Positions 3,242-32,055 of a stretch of 36,084 nucleotides of DNA are shown piece by piece. The notes beneath the pieces are model-generated. The model saw nothing but the letters and a program-made list of their open reading frames with translations, was not told where the DNA came from and ran no database searches. How positions within the stretch are numbered: position 1 is the stretch's first letter; each line of letters starts with the position of its first letter. The position numbers and the translations under genes were made by a program. Where the stretch lies: contig NZ_JARIDH010000005.1 in assembly GCF_029267215.1 (NCBI RefSeq), positions 1-36,084 of the forward strand, written 5' to 3'. Source of the DNA: Clostridium sp. GTDB taxonomy: Bacteria; Bacillota; Clostridia; Clostridiales; Clostridiaceae.

Positions 3242-3652
3242 CTAAAGTTCTACTTCTATACACTTCACTAGGAAATTATTTAATCTTTCTTCCTGTCCAC
3301 TTAAATATAAATATCCTACTAAAGCTTCAAATCCAGTTGCATTTCTATAATCTCTTACATCTGCATTTTTAGGAACTGTTGCTGACTTAGCATTTCTTCC
3401 TCTTTTAAATATGTAAAGTTCATCTTCTGTAAGTTCACTTTCTAAAGCATTTATTATATCGCTTTGTGCCTTAGCTTTTACATATTGTATAGCTTTCACA
3501 TGTATTTTATGTGCAGATAAACCAACATTTTCACTTAATATATAGTTTCTTATAAAAATCTCATAAACTCCATCTCCAATTAAAGCCAACTGAAGTGGAT
3601 TAAGCATTCTAGCTTCCTTTTCTGAAAACTCTCTGTTCAATAAATTCTTCAA
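3242..3652 (-). CDS. mrnC: Mini-ribonuclease III, 23S rRNA maturation
   Basis: Mini-III is an RNase III catalytic domain without the double-stranded RNA-binding domain; it trims 23S rRNA precursors. The catalytic block is LALIGDGVYEIFIRNYIL, with D27 in the numbering used here, and a second acidic helix lies near the C terminus (GFEALVGYLYLSG). I chose TTG at 3650-3652 as the start. An AAAAGGAG site (3661-3668) lies exactly 8 bases upstream of it, and the protein then begins MKNLLNREFS. An in-frame ATG at 3680-3682 would add ten residues but has no ribosome site, and that site would fall inside its coding region. The resulting 136 residues match the size of characterised Mini-III proteins. 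Confidence 0.9.
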   Translation of the reverse strand: MKNLLNREFSEKEARMLNPLQLALIGDGVYEIFIRNYILSENVGLSAHKIHVKAIQYVKAKAQSDIINALESELTEDELYIFKRGRNAKSATVPKNADVRDYRNATGFEALVGYLYLSGQEERLNNFLVKCIEVEL

Positions 3653-3840
3653 TATTATATCTCCTTTTGTTTCTACTTTCATAAAATCAATATATAATTA
3701 ATCATTTTAAACTATTACTAAACAAATTTAAACCAAATTCTAATTACAAAATTCCTTATATATAAATTTATTTAACTTGAAAGTTCTAGTTACTTAATAT
3801 TACACTTTAATTTTAACACTTACAAATTAAAATTAACTAA

Positions 3841-3881
3841 AATAATAACTTGCAAAAGAAATTCTTCTGCAAGTTATTATT
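3841..3881 (-). terminator. Rho-independent terminator after cysS
   Basis: A perfect 14-bp inverted repeat (3841-3854 with 3868-3881, 13-base loop) lies 4 bases past the cysS stop codon. On the minus strand it is followed by a T-rich tract. It separates cysS from mrnC, so mrnC needs its own promoter somewhere in the AT-rich 3683-3840; I could not pick one with confidence. Confidence 0.75.
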
Positions 3882-3885
3882 CAAA

Positions 3886-5286
3886 CTATATTTGCTTCCA
3901 TCTTACACCCTGAGGAGTATCTTCTAAAACTATCCCTCTATCTTTAAGATCATCCCTTATTTTATCGGCTAAAGCGAAATCTCTATTCTTTCTTGCTTCT
4001 TGTCTTTCAGCTATCAAAGCTTCAACTTCTTCAGCAATATCACCCTTAGTTGATTTTTGTAACATACCTAATGGTGCTCCTAATTCTCTTATTAAATCTA
4101 AAGCCTTTTCAGATAACTCTTTTGAAGAATTTATTGTTATATTTGTATTAGTATCTCTTATTAAGTCAAATATAGCAGTTATTGCATCAGCAGTATTGAA
4201 GTCATCATCCATTTTTTCAATGTACTTGTCTCTATATTGATTTAATGATTCTAAGTAAACTTTCTCTTCTTCATTCATTTCTTCTCTTGAAACTTCATCA
4301 ATTAAGTTTTCTAAATTTCCTATAGCATTATATATTCTTTCAACAGAAGCCTTAGCTGAATCTAATAAATCTTCGCTAAAGTTTAATTGTTGTCTGTAAT
4401 GAGCTGATAACATTAAAAATCTTATAACATCAGCATCATATCTCTCTAATATTTCTCTTGCCGTAAAGAAGTTATTTAATGATTTAGACATTTTTTCATT
4501 ATTTACATTAACAAAAGCTGAATGCAACCAATATCTTGCAAATGGTTTTCCTGTTAATGCTTCACTTTGCGCAACTTCATTTTCATGATGTGGGAATGTT
4601 AAATCCGCTCCACCAGCATGAATATCTATAGTTTCACCTAAAAGTTTTTTAGCCATGCATGAACATTCTATATGCCATCCTGGTCTTCCCATTCCCCATG
4701 GACTGTTCCAAGCTGGTTCCCCTGGTTTTTGAGCTTTCCATATAGCGAAATCCATTGGATCTTTCTTTCTCTCATCAACTCTTATTCTAACACCTGACTG
4801 TAGATCTTCTATATTTTGACCTGATAATTTTCCATAGCCTTCAAATTTCTTAGTTGAAAAATAGACATCTCCATCTACCTCGTAAGCATATCCTTTATCA
4901 ATTAATCCTTTAACAAACTTTATTATTTCTCCAATAAACTCTGTAGCTCGTGGATTAACTGTAGCTCTCTCTATATTTAAAGTATCTGCATCTTGATAAT
5001 ACTCTTTTATATAAGTATCTCCAATTTTCTTTACAGTAGTTCCTTCTTCATTTGCTTTTTTTATCATCTTGTCATCTATATCTGTAAAGTTTTGAACAAA
5101 ATCTACTTTAAATCCTCTGTACTCAAAGTATCTTCTTATAGTATCAAAAACTATAAAAGTTCTTCCATTTCCTATATGGAAAAAATTATATACAGTAGGA
5201 CCACAAACATACATTTTAACTTCTCCTGGAGTTAATGGAATGAATTCTTCTTTTTTCTTGTTTAAAGTATTATAAACCTTAATCAC
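3886..5286 (-). CDS. cysS: Cysteinyl-tRNA synthetase
   Basis: A class I synthetase that charges tRNA-Cys, with the normal 466 residues. The HIGH-type motif is HIGN (residues 37-40), with the zinc ligand C28 in [10 protein letters not shown]. Further zinc ligands lie in WHIECSCMA and PHHENE. The KMSKS loop is intact in [13 protein letters not shown] (about residue 266). The C-terminal anticodon-binding part ends in [13 protein letters not shown]. The start is GTG at 5284-5286, with AGGAGG seven bases upstream. No T-box precedes it, unlike proS, although T-boxes are common before clostridial cysS genes. tRNA-Cys itself is at the right end of this window. Confidence 0.97.
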
Positions 5287-8208: not shown

Positions 8209-9318
8209 TTAAGATTTAGACTTAGCAAATATCATTCTACCTGCCGCTGTTTGAAGCACCGAAGTAACAACAACTGTAATTTCTTTACCCATGTATTTTC
8301 TTCCACTTTCTACAACAATCATAGTACCATCATCAAGATAAGCAACCCCTTGTCCAGCTTCTTTTCCATCCTTAACAACTGTAAGTGTCATCTCTTCTCC
8401 TGGTAATACTACAGGTTTTATAGCATTTGCTAATTCATTTATATTTAGTACAGGAACTCCCTGAAACTCTGCTACTTTATTTAGATTGTAGTCATTTGTT
8501 ACAACCTTACCATTCAATTTTTGTGCTAATTTAAGTAATTTAATATCAACCTCTGCAATTTCTGGAAAATCTCCTTCCCACATTTGAACTTCAATTGAAA
8601 GTTCTTTCTGAATCTTATTAAGTATATCTAATCCTCTTCTTCCTCTTGTTCTCTTTAATGAATCTGAACAATCTGATATATGTCTTAATTCATCAAGAAC
8701 AAAGGTAGGTATTACTAAAGAACCTTCAATAAATCCAGTTTGGCATAAATCAAATATTCTTCCATCTATTATTACTGATGTATCTAAAACCTTTGGTGTT
8801 GCACCACTTTTCTTAGGTTGACTAGTTTTAGATTTTTTCTCCTTAGATTGATTTTTTCTAAAGTTTTCAAAATATCCAGCTATATCATCTCTTTTCTTAA
8901 CTGCTATATCAGCTCCAATAACCATTGCAATTATATTTATAATTACTGAAACTATTGGACCTAATATTTCGTTTATTGATCCACTTAAGAAGCTACTTAA
9001 AGGCAATGTTATAACTAATGCTAATATTAAAGCTACTATAGCCCCTATAGCCCCAAAAATTATTTCGCTTGGTGATAATTTTGATATACTTTTCTCAATA
9101 AATGTTATAAGTTTTCTTATGTACTTATAAATATAAGGAGAAAGTAAAAATAGTATAAATCCAAAAATAGCAATTAAAATTAAATAAAATGATACCTGTA
9201 AGAAAATATTTGTTAAATATTCCTTTCCTAGCGAACTATGCTTTATTCCGTCTGCTAAAACATAACCAACTAATACTCCTAAAATAGTAAAAATTACTCT
9301 AAAAAGTTTCTTTATCAC
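8209..9318 (-). CDS. Membrane-anchored PIN/TRAM-domain protein (YacL family)
   Basis: This 369-residue protein has four likely membrane segments (about 5-22, 40-60, 86-106 and 117-138). A charged linker follows, then a PIN nuclease domain starting at VLDTSVIIDGRIFD (178-190), where D179 and D185 are predicted metal ligands. A TRAM-type nucleic-acid-binding domain (about 295-355) ends the protein. This is the architecture of Bacillus YacL, conserved next to disA and radA. Nuclease activity is inferred from the fold; the cellular substrate is not established to my knowledge. The start is GTG at 9316-9318 with a strong AGGAGGTG site. Confidence 0.9.
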   Translation of the reverse strand: MIKKLFRVIFTILGVLVGYVLADGIKHSSLGKEYLTNIFLQVSFYLILIAIFGFILFLLSPYIYKYIRKLITFIEKSISKLSPSEIIFGAIGAIVALILALVITLPLSSFLSGSINEILGPIVSVIINIIAMVIGADIAVKKRDDIAGYFENFRKNQSKEKKSKTSQPKKSGATPKVLDTSVIIDGRIFDLCQTGFIEGSLVIPTFVLDELRHISDCSDSLKRTRGRRGLDILNKIQKELSIEVQMWEGDFPEIAEVDIKLLKLAQKLNGKVVTNDYNLNKVAEFQGVPVLNINELANAIKPVVLPGEEMTLTVVKDGKEAGQGVAYLDDGTMIVVESGRKYMGKEITVVVTSVLQTAAGRMIFAKSKS

Positions 9319-20932: not shown

Positions 20933-21946
20933 TTATGTGTTCAAAGCATTTCTAATAATTTTAGCCCTCTCTAGTTTTATATTTTGTATATTTAACTTAG
21001 TTTTTAAAGTTTTGTTTATTATACTTGGTTGTATATTTATCATAGCTTCATTTACTGCCTTTAAACTAATATCATTGATAATACCTAACTCAATACCAAG
21101 CCTTACATAAGATAATAGTTTTAGCCCCTCACTTATATCTATGATATATGCATTTTTCAATGTTCCTAAAGCCCTATATATAGTGTCTTTAAGTTCAACC
21201 TCTCCTTCATCTAAAAGCTTATCTCGTTCTCTTTTCTCATTTATAACAAGTTTATTTGCTATAGATAGTAATGAATCTAGTATATCTTCCTCTGATAACC
21301 CAATTGTTTTGACATTGGAAATGTTATATATATTTCCAATATCTCTACTACCTAGTCTGTACATACTTCTTATGTTTATTCCAAATTCTGATAAATTTTC
21401 TTTTATATCTCTCATACTTCCACTTAGATTTAAAGCTGGTAAATGTAAAATAACTTTTCCAATTAATGCAGTCCCTAAATTTTTAATATTAGAAGTTAAA
21501 TATCCAAATTCATCATCAAAAGAATATTCAAATTTTCCATCTAACAAATCATCTAATTCATTTACTACTTTAAATGCACCTCTTAAATCTAAGCCACTCT
21601 TTGTAGATTCTATCCCAATATGCTCTTCTTCATTCAATAATATATTAAATTCTTCATTTTTACTCATAATTAATGCTGTATTATCACTACTTAAGAAGTC
21701 CTTAGATATTCCAAAACTCTCTTTTTCATAATCCACTAATTCATAATCACACTTTATATTTACTCTATATATATTTTCCGAAATACTACTTTCATCTAAT
21801 ACTCTTAGAACTTTATTTATTATTTCCTTACATTCCTCTTCTTTTAAAAGAGATGCAAATTTAAATCCCTTTATATTTCTAAAAATCTTAACTTTTGATG
21901 CAATAATAATATCTCTATTATTTTGAGGATTAACCCATTTTACCAT
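20933..21946 (-). CDS. mcsB: McsB-family protein, probably catalytically dead arginine kinase
   Basis: By position and overall similarity this is McsB, the protein-arginine kinase that marks proteins for ClpCP. It has 337 residues, somewhat shorter than Bacillus McsB. Conserved framework is clear: FGYLTS, HLPAL, GNIYNISN and VRLGIELGI. Key residues differ. The SSRIR arginines are K18 and K20, the arginine after NEEDHI is G111, the cysteine of SCPTNVGTGLR is N153, and its arginine is I162. The C-terminal RDxxRA phospho-arginine site is also eroded. The comparison is with the B. subtilis sequence from memory. The frame is open, with a GGAGG site overlapping the mcsA stop, so this is not a pseudogene in the usual sense. 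Confidence 0.88.
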   Translation of the reverse strand: MVKWVNPQNNRDIIIASKVKIFRNIKGFKFASLLKEEECKEIINKVLRVLDESSISENIYRVNIKCDYELVDYEKESFGISKDFLSSDNTALIMSKNEEFNILLNEEEHIGIESTKSGLDLRGAFKVVNELDDLLDGKFEYSFDDEFGYLTSNIKNLGTALIGKVILHLPALNLSGSMRDIKENLSEFGINIRSMYRLGSRDIGNIYNISNVKTIGLSEEDILDSLLSIANKLVINEKRERDKLLDEGEVELKDTIYRALGTLKNAYIIDISEGLKLLSYVRLGIELGIINDISLKAVNEAMINIQPSIINKTLKTKLNIQNIKLERAKIIRNALNT

Positions 21947-21959
21947 TCTTACTATCCTC

Positions 21960-22433
21960 CTAAATATTTTTTTTCATATTATCTATTTTTTCTTTAGTAA
22001 GAATAGCTTTATCATATTCCTCATTTAATATATTCATTTTAAGTTGTTCTTCTAATTGTAATATTTCTTTTCCTCTAAAATATTTTTCCAAACTATTTGG
22101 TCTTTTTCCAGTGTGTTTTCCATAACCTTTCCATTCTAAATACTCTCTTATTTTAGGTCTAAAATTTTCATAACACCTCTCACATCCAAGAACTTTATTT
22201 TCCTCAAAATCAATATACTCTGTACCACAATTTTTACAAGCCTCATAATCAATTTCTAAAAGTTCATCATCTAATATATAATCATTCAAATCTATATTCT
22301 CTTTATCAAAATAAGATTTCATTATATCAATAGCACAAGTCTCACAAAGCATTATACTATTCTTATCTCCTGAGCTATTTTGATTTATAAATTGTATTGT
22401 TGCCTCATTTTTATTACATATCTCACAAAGCAA
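21960..22433 (-). CDS. mcsA: McsA, zinc-binding modulator of McsB
   Basis: A 157-residue protein with four CXXC pairs: CEIC (3-6), CETC (about 30-33), CKNC and CERC, all intact as expected for the zinc domains of McsA. The C terminus carries a UVR-type helical pair (QLEEQLKMNILNEEYDKAILTKEKI). McsA activates McsB and CtsR-related regulation in Bacillus. The start is TTG at 22431-22433, the only usable start. Its ribosome site (GGGGG, or the nearer AGAG) is unremarkable. It lies between ctsR and mcsB in the standard operon order. Confidence 0.92.
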   Translation of the reverse strand: MLCEICNKNEATIQFINQNSSGDKNSIMLCETCAIDIMKSYFDKENIDLNDYILDDELLEIDYEACKNCGTEYIDFEENKVLGCERCYENFRPKIREYLEWKGYGKHTGKRPNSLEKYFRGKEILQLEEQLKMNILNEEYDKAILTKEKIDNMKKNI

Positions 22434-22454: not shown

Positions 22455-22910
22455 TTACTTTAACAATACCATAAGCATAGCTTTAAAAATATCTGCCCTT
22501 GTTTCATTTATATTCTTAGAATTTTGAAGAGTTCTATCATTTATAGCAATTTTAGTAAGATTAGATGTTTTTTCATCTATAATATTATGTTCAAACAAAT
22601 TATCTATAATAGCTACTGCATTATGATATGTAATTTTAGAACCTATTTCATCATATATAAGTTCTCTTCTATCAGCATGGACTTCGTGTATTATTTTTTT
22701 AATAATAATATATCCACCACCACCTCTTCTACTTTCTATAAGATAGCCTTTTTCATAAGTAAATCTTGTTGTTAATACATAATTTATCTGTGAAGGTGCA
22801 CAATTAAATTTATCTGCTAACTCATTTCTTCTTATTCTCAAATTTTTATCATCTGTCTTTTCTAAAGAGTCTTTTAAAAAAACTTCTATTGAATCAGATA
22901 ACTTAGCCAT
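22455..22910 (-). CDS. ctsR: Class III heat-shock repressor CtsR
   Basis: CtsR represses clp genes and releases DNA on heating. The helix-turn-helix (about 12-45: RRNELADKFNCAPSQINYVLTTRF) is followed by the glycine-rich wing RRGGGGYI, the thermosensing loop. A C-terminal dimerisation domain completes 151 residues. I start it at ATG 22908-22910 (MAKLSDSIE). The AAGGAG site (22919-22924) is 8 bases upstream, whereas the earlier in-frame GTG at 22917-22919 overlaps that site. It is the first gene of the operon and is autoregulated through the CtsR box at 22928-22944. Confidence 0.95.
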   Translation of the reverse strand: MAKLSDSIEVFLKDSLEKTDDKNLRIRRNELADKFNCAPSQINYVLTTRFTYEKGYLIESRRGGGGYIIIKKIIHEVHADRRELIYDEIGSKITYHNAVAIIDNLFEHNIIDEKTSNLTKIAINDRTLQNSKNINETRADIFKAMLMVLLK

Positions 22911-22927
22911 ATATATCACTCCTTAAA

Positions 22928-22944
22928 TTTGACCTTTTCTGACC
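22928..22944 (-). promoter_or_regulatory. CtsR operator
   Basis: On the minus strand the heptamers GGTCAGA and GGTCAAA are separated by AAA, the 7-3-7 tandem arrangement of the CtsR box (GGTCAAA-N3-GGTCAAA) with one mismatch. It lies between the promoter and the ctsR ribosome site. Confidence 0.9.
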
Positions 22945-23791: not shown

Positions 23792-25453
23792 TTAGTGCAA
23801 AGAATCTAAATTTAATTCTATTAACTTTCCTTTTGTCTTATCTAAATATTCATTTATAACTGGAATAACAACTTCTAAATGTTGAGTGAAATCAACAATT
23901 ATATCTCCTTTTTCTGCAATTGCTAAAGCTTTTTCAACAGCTTCTTTCTCATCCAATATAGGAAAAATATCAACATCCTTATTTGCACTCTCTTTTATAC
24001 CCTCTGTCAATAAATTAGTTATTTCTAAAGGATTTCTTCCTCTTCTATCAAAGGTTTCTTTTATAAATATTATATCTGAACTCTTTCCAGCTATTTCTCC
24101 AAGTTTTTTTATGTAATCATCCAATCTATCACCTGGAGAAGAAATTATTGATATGATTTTATTCTCTTTTAAAGAACTAGCCAGTAAAAATACCTCTTCA
24201 AAAGCCTCTGGATTATGTCCATAATCTAATATAACCTTAAATTCATTTATATCTAATACATTTTGTCTTCCCAAATTTGAATTAATATCACACTCAATAT
24301 CTTTTAAAGAGTTTATTACTTCCTCTAATTTAGGATGTACAGTAAAAAGGGCTGCTAAAGCAGATAAAATATTGTTTACATTAGTTTTAGATTTACCTTC
24401 GTGAGTAAATTTAAAATCACATATATTTAAAATAACCTTTTCACATTCTCCATCAAAAAAAATAACATTACCATTCTCCACATACCAAGCTTCTTTACCA
24501 TTTTTAATATGCCTTTTTATACATTCATTCTTTTCATTATTAAATAAAACTAAATTATGCTTTGTTTGAAGTATTTTATAAAGTTTATGATCAGCTTTAA
24601 TAATAACCTTACCATCATCACGTACTTCCCTAGTAGTTACAAGTTTTATATCCATTAAATCATCAAGAGAGTTAATACCTTCTGCCCCAATATGATCTTC
24701 ACTTAAAGAAGTTATAATGGCAACTTTTGACCCTTTAAATCCTAATCCTTTTCTTAATATCCCTCCTCTAGCGGTTTCTAAAACAGCCATTTCAACCTTA
24801 GGATTAGTAAGAACAGTTTTTGCGCTATAAAATCCAGTAGTATCCCCCTTTTTAATTACCTCATCATTGATAATAATAGAACCTGTACTAGCTAATCCTG
24901 TATAATAACCAATATTATTTAAGGCCTTATATATTAATCTTGAGGTAGATGTTTTTCCATTAGTTCCGGTAATAGATATTATAGGTATTCTTCCATCTTC
25001 CTTTAATGTAAAATCATAATCCCCACTTTCAAATTCCTTTTGATTTATTCTCTTTGAGTTAACTCCATATCCAATAACTACTGAATCCTCATCTACAAAG
25101 AAATCAATATCCTTCTTTGAACATTCATGTAAAAGGTTATATTCCCAAAGTTCCCCCCTCTTACTCACAGCTTCTTTCAATAAGTCATCAGCATTAACTC
25201 CATCTATCAAGTTCTCAATAATAAATAAAGCAAGTTCCTTATGTAAATAAGTTAACCATGCTTTTCCTCCATATTCATCATATATGACATCTCTAAGTGT
25301 TCCTTCTATATTCATTTGTCTACAAATAAACTCATAATCACTTATAAGCCAATAAAGTTTTTTTCTCTCTGCCTCTCCTATATTTATATATATTAGTCGC
25401 TCCTCACCTTTAATATTTCTTCCTTCTAGTAATTTTAAATCTATAAGTTTCAA
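23792..25453 (-). CDS. Cyanophycin synthetase-like Mur ligase lacking the ATP-grasp domain
   Basis: A 553-residue protein. Residues 160-540 form a Mur-ligase domain with ATP-binding GTNGKTST (163-170), the cyanophycin-synthetase-like ETARGGILRKGLGF (226-239), and SLSEDHIG. Residues 1-110 resemble the N domain of cyanophycin synthetase CphA (start MKLIDLKLLEGRN, then EYGGKAWLTYLHKELAL). The central ATP-grasp domain that adds aspartate in CphA is absent; about 50 residues stand in its place. It could ligate an amino acid to an unknown acid, but the substrate cannot be inferred. The start is TTG at 25451-25453 after a GGAAGGGTG site. No cphB-like or second ligase gene is adjacent. Confidence 0.8.
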   Translation of the reverse strand: MKLIDLKLLEGRNIKGEERLIYINIGEAERKKLYWLISDYEFICRQMNIEGTLRDVIYDEYGGKAWLTYLHKELALFIIENLIDGVNADDLLKEAVSKRGELWEYNLLHECSKKDIDFFVDEDSVVIGYGVNSKRINQKEFESGDYDFTLKEDGRIPIISITGTNGKTSTSRLIYKALNNIGYYTGLASTGSIIINDEVIKKGDTTGFYSAKTVLTNPKVEMAVLETARGGILRKGLGFKGSKVAIITSLSEDHIGAEGINSLDDLMDIKLVTTREVRDDGKVIIKADHKLYKILQTKHNLVLFNNEKNECIKRHIKNGKEAWYVENGNVIFFDGECEKVILNICDFKFTHEGKSKTNVNNILSALAALFTVHPKLEEVINSLKDIECDINSNLGRQNVLDINEFKVILDYGHNPEAFEEVFLLASSLKENKIISIISSPGDRLDDYIKKLGEIAGKSSDIIFIKETFDRRGRNPLEITNLLTEGIKESANKDVDIFPILDEKEAVEKALAIAEKGDIIVDFTQHLEVVIPVINEYLDKTKGKLIELNLDSLH

Positions 25454-30882: not shown

Positions 30883-32055
30883 ATGAGACAAGAAGTTATT
30901 TCTTATTTATCTACAGAAAAAGAAAACTTATATAACCTATGCAAGTTTCTCCATGATAACCCTGAAGAAAGTTACAAAGAATATGATGCTTGCAAATATA
31001 TAAGTAATTTTCTAAGAGAAAGAGATTTTGAAGTTCAAGAAAAATTCTTAGACTTAGATACTGCTTTCTATGCAGAAAAAGGAACCGGTTACCCTAAAAT
31101 ATGTTTTTTATGTGAATATGATGCTATAAAATCTAAAGGTGGACATATAACAGGTCATAATCTTCTTACCACTATATCTGTTACCAGTGCATTAGGATTA
31201 GGTAAAGTTATAGAAAAATCTGGTGGTACTGTAGTTTTAATAGGGTGTCCTGGAGAATACTTAGGTGGAACAAAATCTACTTTTGTTAGACAAGGTGTAT
31301 TTGATGATATAGATGCTGTCTTAGTAGCCCACCCTGACTTAGTTACATCAGAAAGTGGAACATCCAAAGCAATTATTCCATTAAAAGTTTCTTTTAAAGG
31401 AAAAGATGGATTAAGCTTTTTAGATTTTGATAATTTCACCTCATTAGATGGAATAATGCTAACTTTCAACATAATAAATACTCTATCAAAAGGTCTTTGC
31501 AATAAAGCTAGTATAAACTCAATACTTTCTCAAGGAGGAGTAACTCCACTACTAAGACCTACAGAATCAGAAGGAAAGTTATATATAAGAGCCAAAAATA
31601 CAGAGATAGCAAAATGTTTAGAAAATAAAATTAGAAATATAGTTTGTTGCGTGGCAGATTCAATGAATTTAGATAGTAAGATTTGTTTATATGAACCACC
31701 AAGTGAAGAACTTTTATCAAACCAAATTCTAAATAGATTATATTCACATAATCTAAAAGAAAATGGAATCATAAATATAGGAAAACCTCGTGATATAGAT
31801 GCAGGACTTTCTTTAGGTGCTGTAAGTCATAAGGTACCTTGTATCCATCCTTATATAAACATAATTGATGATTTAAACATAGAATATGGAACAAAAGAAT
31901 TTGCAGATGCAACAATAAAACCATTTGCCCAAAAACAAGCACTCTCAGCTTCATATTCATTAATATCTACAGCTTTAGATTTAATAGAAAGCAAGTTCCT
32001 TCTTTCTGAAATAAAAGAAACTTTTAATCTCTCAAAAGAAGAATTATATAAATAG
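30883..32055 (+). CDS. M20-family amidohydrolase-like protein with altered metal site
   Basis: A 390-residue protein of the M20 peptidase/amidohydrolase family (AbgB/ACY1L2-like). The fold markers are present: FLCEYDA (75-81), an H-x-x-G-H block (88-92), GCPGEYLGGTKS (121-132), VLVAHPDL with H150, and SHKVPCIHPYI near the C terminus. Two expected dimetal ligands differ: the Cys of HxCGH is T90 and the second Glu of PAEE is Y126. It may be a pseudo-hydrolase, a mono-metal enzyme or a binding protein. The start is ATG at 30883 with an AGGAGG site. It is a single gene ended by the terminator at 32139-32196. Confidence 0.83.
   Translation: MRQEVISYLSTEKENLYNLCKFLHDNPEESYKEYDACKYISNFLRERDFEVQEKFLDLDTAFYAEKGTGYPKICFLCEYDAIKSKGGHITGHNLLTTISVTSALGLGKVIEKSGGTVVLIGCPGEYLGGTKSTFVRQGVFDDIDAVLVAHPDLVTSESGTSKAIIPLKVSFKGKDGLSFLDFDNFTSLDGIMLTFNIINTLSKGLCNKASINSILSQGGVTPLLRPTESEGKLYIRAKNTEIAKCLENKIRNIVCCVADSMNLDSKICLYEPPSEELLSNQILNRLYSHNLKENGIINIGKPRDIDAGLSLGAVSHKVPCIHPYINIIDDLNIEYGTKEFADATIKPFAQKQALSASYSLISTALDLIESKFLLSEIKETFNLSKEELYK

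Follow-up and report, generated by a model that had tools for sequence, protein, structure and literature searches.

A probable McsB pseudokinase, with its active site replaced, in the ctsR-clpC operon of a Clostridium species and its relatives

What is left for a McsB to do when its active site appears to be lost and its gene is still found, unbroken, between mcsA and clpC? The question is raised by a gene in the window, a stretch of 36,084 nucleotides from Clostridium sp. (NCBI RefSeq assembly GCF_029267215.1, contig NZ_JARIDH010000005.1, positions 1 to 36,084 of the forward strand). An earlier note on this DNA had proposed a pseudokinase-like McsB inside the operon and offered three options: a non-catalytic adaptor, a changed chemistry, or another kinase making the mark. 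Our analysis confirms the pseudokinase-like McsB, in a pattern that is clade-wide rather than confined to a single gene; among the options, the adaptor is the best supported and the other two are disfavoured. In B. subtilis, McsB has been described as both a kinase and an adaptor of ClpC (PMC8957991); conserved, kinase-dead McsBs make it testable how far the two roles can be separated. Structural background on McsB is available from PMC7235348, PMC12467219 and PMC8370763.

Table 1. Features of the operon and of the McsB pseudokinase gene in the window
Feature	Position	Strand	Basis
mcsB pseudokinase gene (predicted), 337 aa, ATG start	20933..21946	-	McsB matches, alignment, AlphaFold model, fold match
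ctsR, 151 aa from ATG	22455..22910	-	PF05848 (1.2e-34) and PF17727 (1.8e-18)
mcsA, 157 aa, TTG start, with four CXXC pairs	21960..22433	-	matches McsA chain 8wtb_B, E 4.3e-11
clpC, 814 aa	18466..20910	-	Clp_N, AAA, AAA_lid_9, UVR, AAA_2 and ClpB_D2-small domains
CtsR-box-like operator GGTCAGAAAAGGTCAAA, directly upstream of ctsR	22928..22944	-	one mismatch to RGTCAAANANRGTCAAA
K18-K20 codons (R29, R31 of B. subtilis McsB)	21887..21895	-	alignment
G111 codon (R125)	21614..21616	-	alignment
N153 codon (catalytic C167)	21488..21490	-	alignment, including to 8gqd
I162 codon (R176)	21461..21463	-	alignment
L198 codon (E212)	21353..21355	-	alignment
F143-Y149, equivalent of S. aureus McsA-docking loop Y147-Y153	21500..21520	-	alignment to 8gqd; ends conserved
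R258 to E273, equivalent of S. aureus salt bridge R262-E277	21128..21175	-	alignment, conservation

The genes are arranged in the order ctsR-mcsA-mcsB-clpC, all on the minus strand, with mcsB placed between mcsA and clpC in a predicted CtsR-controlled operon (Table 1). The mcsB frame is open, as the earlier note had read it, and a frameshifted or broken gene can be rejected on this ground. The mcsA product, which contains all four of the CXXC pairs previously claimed, gave no match in a Pfam search and matched NF053706 at 4e-18, under the cut-off of that model; for ctsR, an alternative GTG start at 22919 is possible. With RGTCAAANANRGTCAAA as the CtsR-box consensus, a search of the window allowing at most one mismatch returned the operator upstream of ctsR as its sole match (0.02 expected), while allowing up to three mismatches gave seven matches against 7.6 expected, which is the chance level. 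A 196-residue frame opposite mcsB, known from the listing of open reading frames alone, was set aside. The second gene upstream of ctsR encodes a Mur-ligase-type protein of 553 residues (TTG start, 23792-25453, minus strand, PF08245 and PF02875), and two further frames, of 369 residues (8209-9318, minus strand) and 390 residues (30883-32055, plus strand), have no Pfam match at 1e-10.

The window protein aligns with G. stearothermophilus McsB (6fh1) over residues 4-335, with an E-value of 1.1e-57. An AlphaFold model calculated from an input of 39 pseudokinase-type sequences has a mean pLDDT of 89.1 and a pTM of 0.86; its best matches in the PDB are the McsB proteins of G. stearothermophilus and B. 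subtilis, with TM values of up to 0.92. As judged from the alignment and the modelled fold, the protein belongs by descent to the McsB family and has the fold of both the kinase and the dimerization domain. By its features, it falls outside the protein-arginine kinases; five NCBIfam protein-arginine-kinase models match it, all under their cut-offs, the best score to the equivalog being 291.5 bits compared to a cut-off of 385. The window genome, which is 95.9% complete, contains one PF00217 match in total and no second McsB was found in it; a second copy was rejected on this ground. With the phosphagen (arginine/creatine) kinases of PF00217, the window protein shares the kinase-domain fold (TM about 0.5-0.6), but it has no match to the phosphagen-kinase N-terminal domain and its active site is lost.

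In the following, residues are numbered as in B. subtilis McsB. In the window protein, Arg29, Arg31, Arg125, Cys167, Arg176 and Glu212 are replaced by Lys18, Lys20, Gly111, Asn153, Ile162 and Leu198, respectively. Glu212 is an acidic residue of the McsB active site. The replacement of four arginines that hold ATP phosphates, and of the conserved cysteine by Asn153, had been proposed in the earlier note and proves to be real in the alignment; the change of Glu212 had been missed. Arg193 had been thought the only arginine of the usual set to be retained. It does correspond to Arg207, but Arg34 (Arg23 in the window) and Arg341 (Arg327) are kept too. From the essential arginines 29, 31, 34, 125, 176 and 207, the window protein thus retains only Arg34 and Arg207, and the phospho-arginine-pocket residues Arg337 and Asp338 are Ile323 and Lys324.

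For B. subtilis McsB, the mutants R29K, R31K, R34K, R125K, R176K, R207K and R337K have each been reported to give no phospho-signal in vitro, and C167S to be inactive as a kinase (PMC7235348). Since the window protein is altered at Arg29, Arg31, Arg125, Cys167, Arg176 and Arg337, each of which abolishes activity when changed in B. subtilis, a working kinase is very unlikely. HMMER, MAFFT and the fold match agree on these assignments, and an alignment artefact was rejected; alignment with known and clostridial McsBs does not place the catalytic residues elsewhere in the protein, and chance or alignment error is excluded because 48 other genes show this pattern too. Erosion of the RDxxRA motif near the carboxy-terminus had been counted as an additional sign of a pseudokinase. 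The erosion is there, but it was rejected as a sign because the Arg-Asp pair at 337/338 is present in only 41 of the 74 McsBs with an intact active site. The other 33 lack it, so this allosteric pocket is variable even in proteins that are probably active kinases.

To describe how far the loss extends, we call the window's genus g1 and a related genus group, which includes Clostridium chromiireducens DSM 23318 (G008), g3; Inconstantimicrobium porci (G181) belongs to g34. A search of 206 genomes of the family with PF00217 gave matches in 156, with low scores in g1 and most of g3 and high scores in most other genera. At the operon, 147 loci were examined, yielding 116 McsBs of the family and seven from other families of the order; residues were therefore scored in 116 of the 156 matching family genomes and in a remnant in G200; the other 39 matches all lie outside g1 and g3. 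Seven core residues were considered (Arg29, Arg31, Arg125, Cys167, Arg176, Arg207 and Glu212). All seven are kept in 74 McsBs and two to seven are lost in 49, including one (G062) that lacks its amino-terminus at a contig end and was scored as lost at two sites. The losses comprise 41 of 41 McsBs in g3, five of five in g1, two of two in g11 and one of two in g34, that of I. porci. A full McsB is missing from 24 of the 147 loci: 22 in g3, one in G202, where there is none, and one in G200, where there is a truncated remnant. For g3, the locus was examined in 63 of 68 genomes; the other five (G012, G033, G037, G044 and G056) have no McsB or CtsR match.

Full-length open frames, of 328-351 residues, are found for 48 pseudo-McsBs. 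In 45 of them, five or six of the seven positions of the B. subtilis mutant set (Arg29, Arg31, Arg34, Arg125, Arg176, Arg207 and Cys167) are changed. Among the 49 McsBs with losses, position 167 is a serine, asparagine, aspartate, threonine, lysine, phenylalanine or histidine, and a cysteine once. The commonest replacements in this set are R176K (34), R29K (29), C167S (26), R207K (24) and E212D (18). Some sets are partial: G067 has lost Arg29 and Arg31 only, G038 keeps Arg29, Arg31 and Glu212, and I. porci McsB has lost Cys167 and Arg207 only. Either the residues were lost in a different order in different lineages, or there have been a few reversions.

Among the 80 loci that carry a species name, McsB has every one of the seven residues in 77; the three exceptions are those of C. 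chromiireducens, I. porci and one with its amino-terminus cut off. Seven other records that carry the name Clostridium (L271-L277) are all intact, so the loss is a trait of g3 rather than of Clostridium as broadly defined. In a tree of ClpC sequences, g1 and g3 lie together on one side of a branch with an SH-aLRT value of 98.2 (46 of 126 rows), with g11 and I. porci separate, and a second ClpC tree with 126 rows agrees on the grouping of g1 and g3. If the root lies among the intact kinases, catalysis would have been lost at least three times, and the tree analysis has several active-site positions lost repeatedly. As reconstructed from these alignments and trees, the loss is common to two genera, with at least two further origins within the family; it is not the oddity of one lineage that it had been taken for.

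A parallel loss concerns YwlE, the arginine phosphatase that erases the mark. It was searched for with a DNA pattern for its P-loop and with a YwlE profile, the listed scores of which fall into two groups, one of 110 bits or more and one of 71 bits or less. Of the family genomes examined, all 67 that have an intact McsB also have YwlE, compared to seven of 73 in which McsB is a pseudokinase, a remnant or absent. No YwlE-type arginine phosphatase was found in the seven genomes of g1, which are 95-100% complete; the one such match in the window genome is a phosphatase of another type, with the P-loop CVHNSCRS. The seven YwlE homologues that occur without an intact kinase are all in g3 and are all altered. 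Five have the P-loop CTANTCRS (G017, G018, G025, G031 and G057), one has CTVNTCRS (G066), and in one (G021) APYG replaces DPYG, with loss of the aspartate. Five of these seven were themselves rows of the YwlE profile, and the P-loop DNA pattern matched six g3 genomes, lying within the phosphatase frame in G021 only. The altered homologues are at L250-L255 and L257, and two of the seven genomes have no McsB. Both McsB and YwlE are missing from g6 (17 genomes), G154-G156, G178 and G187; G155 is 82% complete, and relatives of the genomes without McsB and YwlE within g25, g33 and g40 have both proteins.

An independent-pairs test on the tree found three pairs; in most pairings YwlE changes in the expected direction in all of them, the average being 2.9 of 3, which is not significant (p 0.25). 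The association between McsB and YwlE is thus numerically strong, but the independent events behind it are few. As for the order of loss, dead kinases exist beside a surviving YwlE homologue while none of the 67 genomes with an intact kinase is without YwlE; the writer was therefore probably lost first and the eraser later. Taken across both genera, the loss of the active site and the loss or change of YwlE suggest that the tag was given up and that the protein was kept for another job, probably helping ClpC.

The pattern of what is retained in the pseudokinases is uneven. At least 95% conservation among the intact kinases defines 62 sites, seven in the active site, 45 elsewhere in the kinase domain and ten in the dimerization domain. 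Weighted average retention of these sites in the pseudokinases is 0.18 for the active site, 0.65 for the rest of the kinase domain and 0.96 for the dimerization domain, and the ratio of kinase-domain to dimerization-domain divergence is 0.84 in kinases and 1.04 in pseudokinases. In S. aureus McsB, residues Tyr147-Tyr153 have been described as an McsA-docking loop and Arg262-Glu277 as a salt bridge (PMC12467219). In the 48 pseudokinases, the corresponding residues (window numbering) are kept in 45 for Phe143, 48 for Gly148, 47 for Tyr149, 46 for Arg258 and 48 for Glu273; the second S. aureus contact, Phe261-Arg271, is variable in kinases and pseudokinases. Changing Arg255, Arg272 or Arg341 of B. 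subtilis McsB to lysine is reported to remove the stimulation by McsA, though not all autophosphorylation (PMC7235348). These McsA-response arginines are present in 46, 46 and 48 of the 48 pseudokinases, respectively. Two others of the same class are not: Arg86 is found in none of the 48 pseudokinases and 11 of 74 kinases, and Arg281 in 12 of 48 and 20 of 74. The McsA cysteines are also kept, at all 48 pseudokinase loci (47 for one position), and where McsB has been lost in g3, at 22 loci, McsA is missing as well, as judged at the locus. All 48 pseudokinases have Arg34, although it is essential for the kinase of B. subtilis; loss of catalysis alone is therefore insufficient as an explanation.

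We thus consider it likely that the window gene encodes a McsB pseudokinase that has lost the ability to make phospho-arginine and is kept as a non-catalytic McsA-McsB adaptor or activator of ClpC. The protein would still fold, dimerise and bind McsA, and the McsA-McsB scaffold would meet ClpC without catalysis, with release of CtsR where CtsR is present; the adaptor role is transferred to the window protein by analogy with B. subtilis. The constant partner of pseudo-McsB at the loci is ClpC. The genomes of four pseudokinases (G197, G199, G101 and G102) gave no CtsR match, which excludes CtsR as the sole client. MecA (PF05389), another ClpC adaptor, gave only two weak matches in the 206 family genomes. 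ClpC itself does not help to decide whether the mark is read. Its Glu32 and Glu107, the phospho-arginine-binding residues pointed out in the earlier note, are indeed kept, but they are invariant in 126 of 126 ClpCs, 23 of which are from genomes where the McsB gene is absent or reduced to a remnant; they thus carry no information on phospho-arginine reading and were rejected as a sign of a reader.

The main rival is slow decay, in which kinase function has been lost and McsB, by now without any function, is drifting towards deletion. ClpC is present without McsA-McsB at the locus in at least 22 g3 genomes, G200 and G202, which makes the scaffold dispensable and means that decay has to be taken seriously; the 22 are among the 63 g3 genomes examined, the two others are from the window's own genus, and several sites have been lost repeatedly. 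Substitution rates bear on both sides of this question. With dS near saturation in most pairs, weight was put on pairs with dS below 0.7. In 20 of 21 close pseudokinase pairs, which overlap and are from g3 and g11 with none from g1, dN/dS is 0.10-0.33 (median of the 21, 0.18); the outlier, G040-G048, has a value of 0.69 and an inconsistent dS. The corresponding range for eight close kinase pairs is 0.02-0.14. For same-genus pairs with dS below 1.5, the median is 0.457 in 748 pseudokinase pairs compared to 0.141 in 79 kinase pairs, and the window gene enters four pairs, with values of 0.35-0.71 at a nearly saturated dS of about 1; saturation of dS probably inflates both the window-gene values and the all-pairs medians. 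Because there is no close pair in g1 and dS is about 1, the case for purifying selection is less firm in that genus. In the close pairs of g3 and g11, pseudo-McsB is constrained, but less so than the kinases. Decay sits poorly with this constraint in the close pairs and with 48 full-length frames, as it does with a dimerization domain, McsA-response arginines and McsA contacts that have survived nearly complete beside an erased active site, and with the retention of the CtsR box and the operon. We regard it as unlikely.

A phosphotransferase that remains active with a changed chemistry, for instance with a lysine-lined phosphate site and another acceptor, would fit the conservative nature of the commonest replacements (R29K, R176K, R207K, C167S and E212D) and the invariance of Arg34. 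We give it little credence: single arginine-to-lysine or cysteine-to-serine changes are reported to abolish activity in B. subtilis (PMC7235348), the window protein has glycine, asparagine, isoleucine and leucine at four of the sites, the replacements differ between lineages, and YwlE is lost or altered. A sensor, binding ATP or phospho-arginine and regulating ClpC without catalysis, could account for Arg34 and Arg341 being invariant in all 48 pseudokinases and for Arg207 being kept in the window; with the Arg337/Asp338 pocket pair absent from 48 of 48 and most phosphate-binding arginines gone, it appears highly improbable. The idea that phospho-arginine comes from another kinase and is still read by ClpC, as the kept Glu32 and Glu107 might hint, has a negligible chance of being right, given the single PF00217 protein of the window genome, the lack of YwlE in all seven g1 genomes and the equal invariance of both glutamates in genomes without McsB.

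The non-catalytic adaptor or activator of ClpC remains the reading we prefer for the window gene. Extending it to the clade is rather more tentative, but on balance we lean towards a history in which g3 (Clostridium in the narrow sense) and its sister genus, that of the window, gave up arginine phosphorylation; the writer would have died, the eraser decayed and McsA-McsB turned into a non-catalytic activator of ClpC, with similar independent losses in g11 and I. porci. Loss of catalysis in the writer would have preceded that of the YwlE eraser, and in several lineages the scaffold may then have been lost altogether.

The known McsB kinases (B. subtilis 6tv6, G. stearothermophilus 6fh1 and S. 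aureus 8gqd) share with the window protein the full-length fold, the gene order ctsR-mcsA-mcsB-clpC, the ends of the McsA-docking loop, the dimerization domain and Arg34, Arg207 and Arg341. They differ from it in Arg29, Arg31, Arg125, Cys167, Arg176, Glu212 and the Arg-Asp of the phospho-arginine pocket, all replaced in the window, in its NCBIfam scores below cut-off and in the YwlE partner, which was not found in its genus. The closest laboratory counterpart is the kinase-dead C167S mutant of B. subtilis McsB, for which an adaptor effect on MgsR turnover has been reported, with an MgsR half-life of 12.3 min compared to 17.7 min upon deletion of mcsB (PMC7235348). Loss of catalysis is common to both, but here it came about in nature, extends to most of the catalytic positions and has become fixed in more than one genus. 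With bacterial Ser/Thr pseudokinases (PMC12599244) the pseudoenzyme principle is shared, while kinase family and chemistry differ; in that paper, McsB is named twice, both times in the reference list. No description of a clostridial pseudokinase McsB was found in the open-licence PMC papers searched.

If our reading is correct, it is unsafe to assume that these clostridia tag proteins with phospho-arginine, a gene with the Pfam name ATP:guanido phosphotransferase would not be one in function, and nature would have separated the adaptor role of McsB from its kinase role. With intermediates still surviving, the joint disappearance of writer and eraser would offer a natural record of how a post-translational mark is lost. 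Among such intermediates is the locus of G200 (L258, g1), where a truncated mcsB remnant with stops lies at about 3535-4352, between clpC and an McsA-like frame of 129 residues with three of the four CXXC pairs. At the locus of G202 (L259, g1), ctsR, mcsA and mcsB are absent beside clpC, and PF00217 and CtsR matches are absent genome-wide. Elsewhere (L052, L053, L117, L118 and loci of g35, g40, g43 and g46), mcsA-mcsB-clpC occurs without ctsR at the locus, and the McsB encoded there is either intact or dead.
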